A DNA stretch of 64,000 nucleotides from the NCBI RefSeq assembly GCF_011050055.1, contig NZ_DRGM01000210.1, positions 62,001 through 126,000 of the forward strand, read 5' to 3'. Source of the DNA: Pseudoalteromonas prydzensis. GTDB taxonomy: Bacteria; Pseudomonadota; Gammaproteobacteria; Enterobacterales; Alteromonadaceae. Under the pieces are notes generated by a model. The model ran no database searches and was not told the origin of the DNA. It saw only the letters and a list, made by a program, of their open reading frames with translations. The position numbers and the translations under genes were made by a program. Shown here piece after piece: positions 34,963 through 38,258 of this stretch (its first letter is position 1; each line of letters starts with the position of its first letter).

Positions 34963-34972
34963 CGCTTAAAGT

Positions 34973-34997
34973 AAAGTGATCAAACACTGATCACTTT
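34973..34997 (+). terminator. Hairpin after pta
   Basis: AAAGTGATCA (34973-34982) and TGATCACTTT (34988-34997) form a 10-bp stem with the 5-nt loop AACAC, ten bases past the pta stop. Only a short T-rich stretch follows. Confidence 0.65.
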
Positions 34998-35073
34998 GCC
35001 CTTGCTGTTAATCTAACCCTATTTTAAATAGTCAATAAAATAAGTAAGTTATTAACTTTATACCTCACTACTC

Positions 35074-35187: not shown

Positions 35188-35586
35188 ATGTCTAAGCAAA
35201 CTTTAAAGCTACATAGTACAACCTTTACCATTCATACCCTTGAAGTGACTGCCGTGATCCCACCTGAGTTATTTAACCAGTCTATGTTTGTGGTAGCCAA
35301 AACTAAAGATGAATTATCGATTGTGTGCCCTAGTGAGTTTGCCATTGACAGCCTTGATGCTGAACATGATTGGCGCGCGTTAGAAGTTATTGGCCCACTT
35401 GGTTTTTCGCTCACTGGGATCATGGCGAATATTTCTGGGGTTTTAGCCAAGGCTAATATCTCTATCTTTGCGATTTCAACTTACGACACTGACTATGTGC
35501 TAGTAAAACAACAACGCATTAATGATGCCATGAAAGCATTAAAAAAAGATGGCTATCAGCTACTTAATGACACTAAGTTGGCATAA
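35188..35586 (+). CDS. ACT-domain protein
   Basis: This 132-residue protein ends in a C-terminal ACT fold: EVIGPLGFSLTGIMANISGVLAKANISIFAISTYDTDYVLVK (two pieces, about residues 70-111). This is the small COG3603-type protein, with an N-terminal half also of ACT-like shape. ACT domains bind amino acids or small ligands and act as sensors. It opens a tight operon with the EIIA-like gene (one-base overlap), the ArsC-like gene, dapE and the M15 peptidase. The ligand is not known. Confidence 0.85.
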   Translation: MSKQTLKLHSTTFTIHTLEVTAVIPPELFNQSMFVVAKTKDELSIVCPSEFAIDSLDAEHDWRALEVIGPLGFSLTGIMANISGVLAKANISIFAISTYDTDYVLVKQQRINDAMKALKKDGYQLLNDTKLA

Positions 35587-36080
35587 TGAAAAACCTTGAG
35601 ATTAGCTATTTACCACAGCGACAATTAACGCCAAACAGCATTGCAATTTGCAGTCCGTTTAGCGGTAAAGTCATGCCATTAAATGAGCACCCTGAACCAT
35701 TTTTTAGCTATGGCACACTGGGCCCTGGCATTATGGTTGCCCTGAGCAATCATAAAATATTAGCGCCTTTTGATGGCACATTATTGCAAGTAAAAAATGC
35801 CGGCACTGAATTTATTTTACAGGCTAATAATGGCTTAAAAGTGCTGCTGAATTTACAGTTAGACCCACAGCAACACATTAAGCAAACACACATTGCTCAG
35901 CTTAATGGCAGTAAAGTGACAAAAGGTCAGCGACTCGCCTATTTTGATCTCAGAGATCTCAGTAGCCCATTACTCGCCTGCCTGATTTTGCTCAATGGCC
36001 ATCAGCTTATACCCATGCATTATTCGTTATCCCACGTAAGCGCAGGGATAGACACCCTTTTAACTATCACTAAGAAGTAA
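35586..36080 (+). CDS. EIIA-Glc-like protein lacking both catalytic histidines
   Basis: This 164-residue protein aligns with the glucose-type PTS EIIA fold: ICSPFSGKVMPLNEHPEPFF (residues 21-40) and ILAPFDGTLLQVKNAGTEF (58-76) followed by LKVLLNLQLD (84-93). In E. coli EIIA-Glc the active-site histidines 75 and 90 sit in TNHAFSI and ELFVHFGID. An ungapped alignment of that 35-residue stretch places Thr74 and Asn89 at those positions. It therefore should not carry phosphate, and is more likely a regulatory or structural relative. Its start overlaps the ACT gene stop by one base, so the two products may work together. No PTS EI, HPr or EIIBC gene is in the window. Confidence 0.82.
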   Translation: MKNLEISYLPQRQLTPNSIAICSPFSGKVMPLNEHPEPFFSYGTLGPGIMVALSNHKILAPFDGTLLQVKNAGTEFILQANNGLKVLLNLQLDPQQHIKQTHIAQLNGSKVTKGQRLAYFDLRDLSSPLLACLILLNGHQLIPMHYSLSHVSAGIDTLLTITKK

Positions 36081-36085
36081 TTAAT

Positions 36086-36433
36086 ATGACCACTCTTTAC
36101 GGCATCAGTAACTGTGACACTATAAAAAAAGCCAAAAAATATTTAACCGATAACGCCATTGACTATACGTTTCATGACTATCGTAAAGACGGCATAAACC
36201 TAGCGATGATCAGCGAGTTTGCCAATCACATCGATTGGCAAGAGTTAGTTAATAAACGCGGCACAACCTATCGCCAATTAACGGATGAACAAAAACAAAA
36301 TCTTGATAAAGACAGCGCACTGGCCATTTTGGTTGAGCAGCCAGCGATGATCAAACGACCAGTATTAATTCACAATGACACTTACCACTTAGGTTTTAAA
36401 GTGGCGCAATACGATGAGATTTTCGCATCATGA
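36086..36433 (+). CDS. ArsC/Spx-like reductase (YffB)
   Basis: This 115-residue protein is an ArsC-family thioredoxin-fold protein, starting [19 protein letters not shown] (residues 2-20), with the family's single N-terminal cysteine in SNCDT (Cys10) and the C-terminal AMIKRPVL segment (about residues 90-97). E. coli yffB sits directly before dapE, as here, which supports the identity. The physiological substrate is unknown; a glutathione-linked thiol reductase role has been proposed for YffB. It overlaps the dapE start by 4 bases. Confidence 0.9.
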
Positions 36434-37560
36434 TCCATCCAGTAATTGAACTTGCTCAAGCCTTGATCCAACGTCGTTCTGTCACGCCTGAAGATGCTGA
36501 TTGCCAAACGATGATGAATGAGCGTTTACAAGCAATAGGCTTTAATATTGAGTCAATGTTTTTCACTGATACCTTGAATACGTGGGCACGAAAAGGCCAA
36601 CAGTCACCTCATTTTTGCTTTGCAGGCCATACCGATGTTGTACCGACTGGGCCTGAAAAAAACTGGCAACACCCGCCATTTTCAGGTTTGCTTGCCGATG
36701 GCATGCTACATGGTCGCGGCGCTGCTGATATGAAAGGCTCACTCGCTGCGATGATTGTTGCAACGGAGCGCTTTGTTGCAAAACACCCCGATCACAAAGG
36801 CTCTATCTCGTTTTTAATCACCTCCGATGAAGAAGGCCCTTTTATCAACGGTACAACCCGCGTGATTGATACCCTAGAAGCGCGCGGTGAAAAAATTGAT
36901 ATGTGCTTAGTCGGTGAGCCATCATCGCGCAATGTATTGGGTGATGTGGTTAAAAATGGTCGCCGTGGTTCTTTAACAGGCTTTTTAACCGTTAAAGGTA
37001 TTCAAGGACATGTGGCCTATCCGCAACTTGCCTTAAATCCAGTGCACTTGGCCGCCCCGCTACTTACGCAGCTCAGCCAAACAGTGTGGGATAACGGTAA
37101 TGAGTTTTTCCCTGCAACCAGCTTTCAAATATCGAACATTAATGGTGGCACTGGTGCGGGTAATGTGATCCCGGGTGAACTTGAAGTGCAGTTTAATTTT
37201 CGTTTTAGTACTGAAGTCACCCATCAGCAATTACAGCAACGCGTAGTTGATATGTTAGCTGACTATGATTTTGAATATGAGCTGAATTGGATTGTTAATG
37301 GTCAGCCATTTATCACCGAAGGCGGACCATTAATTGATGCAACGGTTACAGCAATAAAAGCAGTGACCGGGTTAGACACCGTACTTGAAACCACTGGCGG
37401 CACGTCTGATGGACGCTTTATTGCCCAAACGGGCGCAAAGGTGATTGAGCTTGGGCCACGTAATGACACCATTCATAAGGTCAATGAGTGTGTAAGCAGT
37501 GACGATCTCATTGCCCTTGCCGATATTTACGAACATATTTTAGAGCAGCTGTTAACATGA
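36430..37560 (+). CDS. dapE: Succinyl-diaminopimelate desuccinylase
   Basis: This 376-residue M20 metallopeptidase-family enzyme has the metal-binding segments [12 protein letters not shown] (residues 65-76), [11 protein letters not shown] and [11 protein letters not shown] with the catalytic glutamate pair, plus the GGTSDGRF segment and a C-terminal [12 protein letters not shown]. It removes succinate from N-succinyl-LL-diaminopimelate in lysine and peptidoglycan precursor synthesis. It starts within the end of the ArsC-like gene and its last bases overlap the M15 peptidase gene, so all these genes appear to be translated in a chain. Confidence 0.96.
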
Positions 37561-38258
37561 GCCAAAGTACACTCACTGCACAACAATTAGCTGAGTGTGC
37601 GTGCGGTAAAAATGAGCTGCAGCTTGTTGAGTATCAAGGTTATAAACTGCATAAAGAGATTGTTGACGACTTTATACGCTTACAAAATGCGGCGCGTGAT
37701 GCGGGCTTTGAACTAGCCATCGCATCTAGCTTTCGGGATTTTGAACGCCAAGCGTTGATCTGGAATGCTAAATTTACTGGACAACGTCCGGTGCTTAATA
37801 AACAACAGCAGCACGTTGATTTAGCGAGTATGCCGGATATTGAAAAGTGCCATGCGATTATGCTCTACTCTGCACTGCCAGGTACCAGCCGACATCACTT
37901 TGGCACTGATCTTGACATCTTTGATCAAGCCGCCGTGTCAGCAGACTATAAATTGCAGCTAGAGCCGAGCGAATACACTGGAAATGGCCCTTTTTCGGCA
38001 ATGACTCAGTGGCTTGATAATCATTTAGAAGACTATGGCTTTTACCGTCCTTATCAACAAGACTTAGGGGGCGTTGCGCCCGAGCCTTGGCACATTAGTC
38101 ATATTCAACAAGCGCAACAGTTAATGCAACACCAGAGTATTGCCGCCTTAACGGATATTATCGAAAACAGTGAAGTTGCGGGCAAAGCCGCTATTTTGGC
38201 GCATTTGCCGCAGCTTTATCAGCGCTATGTGTTGAATGTGAGTGCCCCGGCTGTTTAG
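37557..38258 (+). CDS. M15-family D,D-peptidase (LdcB/VanY-like)
   Basis: This 233-residue protein has the M15B motifs: [28 protein letters not shown] with the metal-binding His and Asp, and EPWHISH with the third ligand. Such enzymes are D-alanyl-D-alanine or LD/DD carboxypeptidases acting on peptidoglycan peptides. No signal peptide is visible at the N-terminus, so a cytosolic role in murein-peptide recycling is more likely than a periplasmic one. Its place after dapE fits peptidoglycan metabolism. The last 68 bases overlap the end of the convergent DMT permease gene. Confidence 0.88.

Follow-up and report, generated by a model that had tools for sequence, protein, structure and literature searches.

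A natural EIIA-Glc homologue without phosphotransfer histidines in Pseudoalteromonas prydzensis and its family

Natural EIIA-Glc proteins without phosphate sites exist, are more widespread than was first noted and are under selection where this was measured. We describe such a protein from Pseudoalteromonas prydzensis, encoded at positions 35586-36080 (+ strand) of a 64,000-nucleotide stretch of DNA, hereafter called the window. Textbooks present EIIA-Glc as the classic carbon switch and usually explain its regulation via its phosphate. We consider it fairly probable that the window gene is a vertically kept orthologue of crr, that its histidine sites drifted after the loss of ptsHI and that its product now acts as a phosphorylation-independent binding protein.

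The EIIA-like protein and its locus

The open reading frame is uninterrupted, starts with ATG and encodes a protein of 164 amino acids. This protein matches Pfam PTS_EIIA_1 (3.9e-19, residues 20-126), and its score of 69 bits lies above the curated cut-off of PF00358 (27.2 bits). With the NCBIfam equivalog model for the EIIA-Glc phosphocarrier (PRK09439), in contrast, it scored 51.2 bits against a cut-off of 212. The closest solved structures are E. coli IIAGlc chains (1.7e-08), and the counterpart in P. prydzensis DSM 14232 is 99% identical. In EIIA-Glc, His90 is the phosphoacceptor and His75 the assisting residue. As the first-pass annotation of this DNA had stated, Thr74 (codon 35805-35807) and Asn89 (codon 35850-35852) stand opposite His75 and His90 of the E. 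coli protein, respectively: the phmmer alignment has no gap across either site, and a recheck with MAFFT agreed. The two histidines that a functional EIIA-Glc should possess are thus both replaced. The first-pass annotation had added that the EIIA fold is otherwise retained, and this holds at the level of sequence and no further; a structure prediction from a shallow alignment of 21 Pseudoalteromonas sequences had a mean pLDDT of 50.4. The N-terminus does not have a crr-like start, which is MGLFDKLK in E. coli. Some of the relatives described below retain such an N-terminus (for example, MGLFSKLV).

The upstream gene (35188..35586, +) encodes an ACT-domain protein (Pfam ACT_7, 1.2e-23; A9CJY8-like_N). 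Its stop codon and the start codon of the EIIA-like gene have one base in common (TAATG). The one-base overlap, which had been described as a fusion, is therefore real, but it is a tight gene junction and does not fuse the proteins. Downstream are genes for a YffB/ArsC-family reductase-like protein (36086..36433, +; above the cut-off of NCBIfam PRK10853), which is a conserved downstream neighbour, for DapE, succinyl-diaminopimelate desuccinylase (36430..37560, +), and for a VanY-type D-Ala-D-Ala carboxypeptidase-like protein (37557..38258, +). The dapE gene overlaps yffB by 4 bases, and the VanY-like gene overlaps dapE by 4 bases. In a promoter scan, promoter-like sites were at chance level (7 versus 7.6 expected). 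Six terminator-like sites were found versus 3.8 expected; one of them lies at 34971-34999, 3' of pta, and weakly suggests a separate unit.

Histidine loss in the family and descent from crr

We searched 147 genomes from the window's GTDB family with a profile (A1) built from 34 relatives and obtained matches in 77 (L, G and f numbers below denote loci, genomes and families). Three of these were dropped: G115 and G139 contain EIIA-HPr-EI fusions, and G007, which has a marginal match elsewhere in the genome (5.4e-4), was treated as a non-carrier. The 74 carriers are the window's genome and 73 others. Both histidines are absent in 51 carriers, one is kept in 22 and both are kept only in G121; His75 is present in 16 carriers and His90 in eight. 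Many kinds of residue occupy position 75 across the family, and the most frequent 75/90 pair is Glu/Gln (14/74). Whether the loss is fixed in the clade had been raised as a check. The loss is general, since at least one histidine is missing from 73 of the 74 carriers, but it is not universal, as G121 demonstrates. The genome of G121 (locus L136) encodes a single HPr and a single EI, the latter as long as PtsP (764-amino-acid frame).

Within Pseudoalteromonas, 23 loci were taken from named records. They represent 22 strains because L052 and L053 belong to one strain, Pseudoalteromonas sp. 3D05, in which two contigs carry the same locus close to their ends; an assembly overlap or a duplication is possible. 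Position 90 is Asn at all 23 loci. Position 75 is Thr at 14, Cys at three, Lys at three, and Ala, Gly or Ser at one each. Among four additional congeners, G098 and G127 have Thr/Asn, and G018 and G064 retain His90.

Over the whole order, the A1 profile matched 324 of 394 genomes at 1e-6, mainly from other families. We read 30 matches in 22 chosen genomes of the order, and 27 have His/His; the exceptions are two loci of family f16 and L161. The L161 gene (649-1194, - strand; G148, family f3) encodes an EIIA-Glc domain in which Ser replaces each of the two histidines, and it stands directly behind an EI-like ORF that runs to the end of the locus. Because L161 lies outside the degenerate family in the gene tree described below, its two histidines were probably lost independently of that family.

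The gene neighbourhood is well conserved. At the 73 carrier loci other than the window's own, yffB is downstream at 68, dapE at 67 and the VanY-like gene at 66, and an ACT gene is upstream at 42. ACT and/or yffB adjoins the EIIA-like gene at all 73. At five of these loci yffB lies 358-998 bases away, and all five have ACT close upstream. In sister families, a canonical His/His crr precedes yffB-dapE at 7 of 19 stand-alone loci (f6, f9, f11, f12, f15, f20), the 19 being the 17 that represent crr in the gene tree below and two f3 loci that were left out of it. At six of these seven loci an EI match lies within 1.5 kb upstream of crr. In family f16, a degenerate EIIA with His/Thr or His/Tyr stands before yffB-dapE. 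The first-pass annotation had named histidines kept by homologues at the same locus as the observation that would count against it, and such homologues do occur: sister families and G121 keep both residues, and single ones are kept elsewhere, including His90 in G018 and G064.

At one sister locus, L145 (G165, family f20), yffB-dapE follows a canonical His/His crr, and the 1.5 kb on the other side of this crr contain no EI match. This genome has two further EIIA matches, in ORFs of 867-870 amino acids, each with an EI match behind. It is possible that G165 represents a halfway state in the history of ptsHI loss.

We examined 30 dapE loci of family genomes without an EIIA match at the locus; they come from 27 of the 70 family genomes without a match and from G007, G115 and G139. 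No trace of EIIA was found at any of them, and the most sensitive HMM search gave a single hit, inside dapE, with an E value of 0.9. A hidden, diverged EIIA was thus rejected at 30 of 30 loci, because this hit is at chance level.

We built a gene tree from 107 EIIA proteins. One branch (99) has the 76 degenerate proteins on the same side, and another (94) has the 18 crr proteins on the same side. A further branch (92) splits the crr and degenerate proteins together from the remaining EIIA rows, of which three nevertheless fall on the crr-plus-degenerate side. Because this tree is quick and unrooted and has long branches, the single origin could come partly from long-branch attraction. The window gene thus has a neighbourhood in common with canonical crr, and crr is its nearest relative in the tree. 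Because of the sister-family synteny and the gene tree, the window gene is most likely an orthologue of crr, stranded upon the loss of ptsHI. On the same evidence, the ancestral order would have been ptsI-crr-yffB-dapE; ptsH and ptsI would have been lost in the line to this family, and crr would have been left before yffB-dapE. Released from phosphotransfer, both histidine sites may then have drifted, repeatedly and separately. On a tree of YffB and DapE, counting over 77 rows gave a minimum of 13 changes at His75 and of 10 at His90. The deep branches of this tree are weakly resolved, and 6 of 113 loci are missing from it because they have no dapE match. In this tree, the crr-bearing sister families are mixed among the carriers.

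The PTS proteins of the window's genome were surveyed in an assembly of 224 contigs (93.84% complete, 8.62% contamination). The window gene is its one PF00358 match. A single HPr was found; it adjoins rapZ, and its assignment as NPr comes from this adjacency, its score being under the cut-off of the NPr model (70.7 versus 119 bits). The single Enzyme I found is of the GAF type and lies above the cut-off of the PtsP model PRK11061. With this PtsP-type EI and this rapZ-linked HPr, the relay found in the genome is of the nitrogen type only. Sugar-type EI and HPr, which would form the cognate relay, were not found in this 93.84% complete assembly. In the family, HPr is present in 146 of 147 genomes, in single copy except in G092 (two), G115 (two) and G139 (three), and the EI N-domain is present in all 147. 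Among the EI matches listed, the ORFs have the length of PtsP (694-822 amino acids) except for three fused proteins of 845-859 amino acids. These three belong to G115 and G139, whose EIIA-HPr-EI fusions are mentioned above; a stand-alone EIIA-like gene was not found in either genome. No sugar-type EI was seen in carriers among the EI matches listed; two carriers, G045 and G129, have a second EI match beyond those listed, and a sugar EI is possible there. Thus, sugar-type PTS proteins were seen in this GTDB family only as the fusions of G115 and G139.

The ACT gene and adenylate cyclase

The first-pass annotation proposed that the ACT and EIIA-like proteins form one sensor. In such a two-protein sensor, the ACT protein would bind an amino acid and control the EIIA-like protein, or the reverse, and an amino-acid signal would act in place of the phosphate signal. 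Both in the window and at 23/23 Pseudoalteromonas loci, the EIIA start follows the ACT gene at a distance of -1 to +3 nt, and the dN/dS values of the two genes are similar (see below). Over the family, the 42 of 73 loci with ACT upstream agree with this idea, as does f16 locus L154, which has an ACT gene; none was detected at the other f16 locus, L155. However, tight spacing is usual in operons. Moreover, no nearby ACT gene was detected in 31 of 73 carriers, and at 18 of the 30 other dapE loci ACT stands before yffB with no EIIA found. The ACT coupling is constant within Pseudoalteromonas, not over the family. A joint function of the two proteins is possible in Pseudoalteromonas, an obligate pair is not supported, and the one-sensor claim lacks support as it was stated. 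We regard the two-protein sensor as rather unlikely. It also seems unlikely to us that, after loss of the sugar PTS, an ACT-coupled crr product dropped its phosphate input and became an amino-acid-responsive regulator in part of the family. If this were true, a famous carbon switch would have turned into a nitrogen or amino-acid switch in part of a bacterial family.

A second proposal was that the protein mimics one state of EIIA. In relatives that retain CyaA, a phospho-state mimic with Glu75 and Gln90 might keep adenylate cyclase active. A class I cyclase was found above the cut-off in 21 of 147 family genomes; all 21 are among the 74 carriers and none among the 73 non-carriers (Fisher, 1.8e-07). 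Furthermore, genomes with a cyclase encode 11 of the 14 Glu/Gln proteins, compared with 10 of 60 other EIIA-like proteins. However, this association is confounded by descent: on a 98-row tree with seven independent carrier/non-carrier pairs, cyclase changed in the same direction in 1.3 of 7 on average and in the opposite direction in 0. Because these pairs give no significance, the association is a lead only. Cyclase genomes also contain eight other residue pairs (Tyr/Lys, Thr/Ser, Gln/Gln, His/Val, His/Glu, His/Gln, Asn/Gln and Glu/His). In the window's genome, the N-domain of class I cyclase was not found and the residues are Thr/Asn. Mimicry of one state is not supported by these results, nor by the variety of residues at position 75 of the 23 Pseudoalteromonas loci. 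In addition, the three cyclases that were scanned (L195, L196 and L198) match PF01295 only within positions 2-341 of 601. Taken together, a phospho-state mimic acting on cyclase is very unlikely.

The three scanned cyclases are short, with 654 (L195, G114), 658 (L196, G033) and 718 amino acids (L198, G129). The short form is already known, because NCBIfam holds a short class I cyclase model (PRK09450.2-1, 638 positions), which L198 alone of the three passed. Four genomes (G033, G073, G075 and G106) have two class I cyclase matches each; in G073 and G106 the two lie about 2 kb apart on one contig.

Selection and possible mode of action

We calculated dN/dS by the Nei-Gojobori method from 23 Pseudoalteromonas sequences (the window and 22 loci, L053 omitted). 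The median for the EIIA-like gene was 0.070 (28 non-independent pairs, dS 0.05-1.2). In the same set, the medians for the neighbours were 0.081 (ACT), 0.084 (YffB), 0.084 (VanY), 0.030 (DapE) and 0.022 (Pta). No in-frame stop was found inside the matched frames of the stand-alone EIIA-like proteins. Simple decay in Pseudoalteromonas was rejected by the dN/dS of about 0.07, which resembles that of the neighbours. Among 21 Pseudoalteromonas proteins, the segment of residues 68-90, around the old active site, had the third lowest entropy of 142 overlapping segments (the two lower ones start at 100 and 101), although it includes position 74, one of the variable sites. Thus, the surroundings of the active site are held while the place of the old histidine is free. 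Of 50 EIIA positions that are invariant in canonical proteins, many vary in this family. A decaying relic without function would explain the free variation of the histidine sites and of these positions, and also a gene so losable that it was not found at 30/30 other dapE loci, but it is highly improbable given the low dN/dS in Pseudoalteromonas and the intact frames. The EIIA-like protein would instead have stayed under purifying selection, as measured in Pseudoalteromonas, while its histidine sites drifted. The earlier description of a non-catalytic protein agrees with the loss of both histidines and with this selection.

Because no sugar relay was found, both histidines are missing and selection is strong, the EIIA-like protein probably now does something other than phosphate transfer. 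Selection without phosphate sites makes binding the most likely mode, and the window protein is probably a phosphorylation-independent binding protein. It would be permanently unphosphorylated, and it may contact its target via the surface that formerly faced its partners or via a remodelled surface. Its amount would be set by translation of the neighbouring genes (in Pseudoalteromonas, the ACT gene), not by sugar flux. At 19 positions chosen to represent the partner interface of E. coli EIIA-Glc, the median identity to E. coli was 0.16, which is lower than the overall identity (medians of 0.22 and 0.28 in two groups). Therefore, the old partners may not be bound. EAL/GGDEF proteins of the CsrD/MshH/PdeS kind are known targets of dephospho-EIIA-Glc, and a protein of this kind is our first guess for a candidate partner. 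In E. coli, EIIA-Glc that carries no phosphate binds CsrD (PMC5027483). The H91A variant of V. cholerae EIIA-Glc is a dephosphomimetic that is active in vivo; in the PdeS pathway it increases both c-di-GMP and biofilm (PMC6877527). The N-terminal amphipathic helix of V. cholerae EIIA-Glc is required for membrane partners (PMC6123446). Because the window protein does not have a crr-like N-terminus, a soluble partner seems more likely.

The window protein resembles EIIA-Glc (crr) of E. coli and Vibrio in its Pfam family, in a gene position before yffB-dapE that several sister families have in common, and in that crr forms the nearest large branch of the tree. It differs in having neither His75 nor His90, in the sugar HPr and EI not being found, and in low identity at the 19 partner-face positions. 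In V. cholerae H91A EIIA-Glc, the phosphorylated histidine is likewise gone and the protein has a regulatory effect in vivo (PMC6877527); however, H91A is one substitution made in the laboratory, in cells that have a PTS, whereas here the loss is natural and the cells show no sugar relay. Of the PTS relays, only PTS-Ntr was found in the window's genome, through its PtsP-type EI and its HPr, but the window protein has neither histidine for it to serve. PtsN, the EIIA of PTS-Ntr, is of another fold and family. The f3 protein of L161 also has both histidines of an EIIA-Glc domain replaced, although it belongs to another family, is encoded beside an EI-like gene and lies outside the window's family in the gene tree. 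In the excerpts of open-licence literature that were searched, no earlier report of such a histidine-less EIIA-Glc family was found, which does not imply absence from print.

These results also carry a warning for annotation: such genes may be named as sugar-transporter subunits where no sugar PTS was found. The approximately 70 natural variants are available for finding phosphorylation-independent partners of EIIA-Glc. In this family, selection that keeps the protein but not its phosphate sites separates the two roles of EIIA-Glc.
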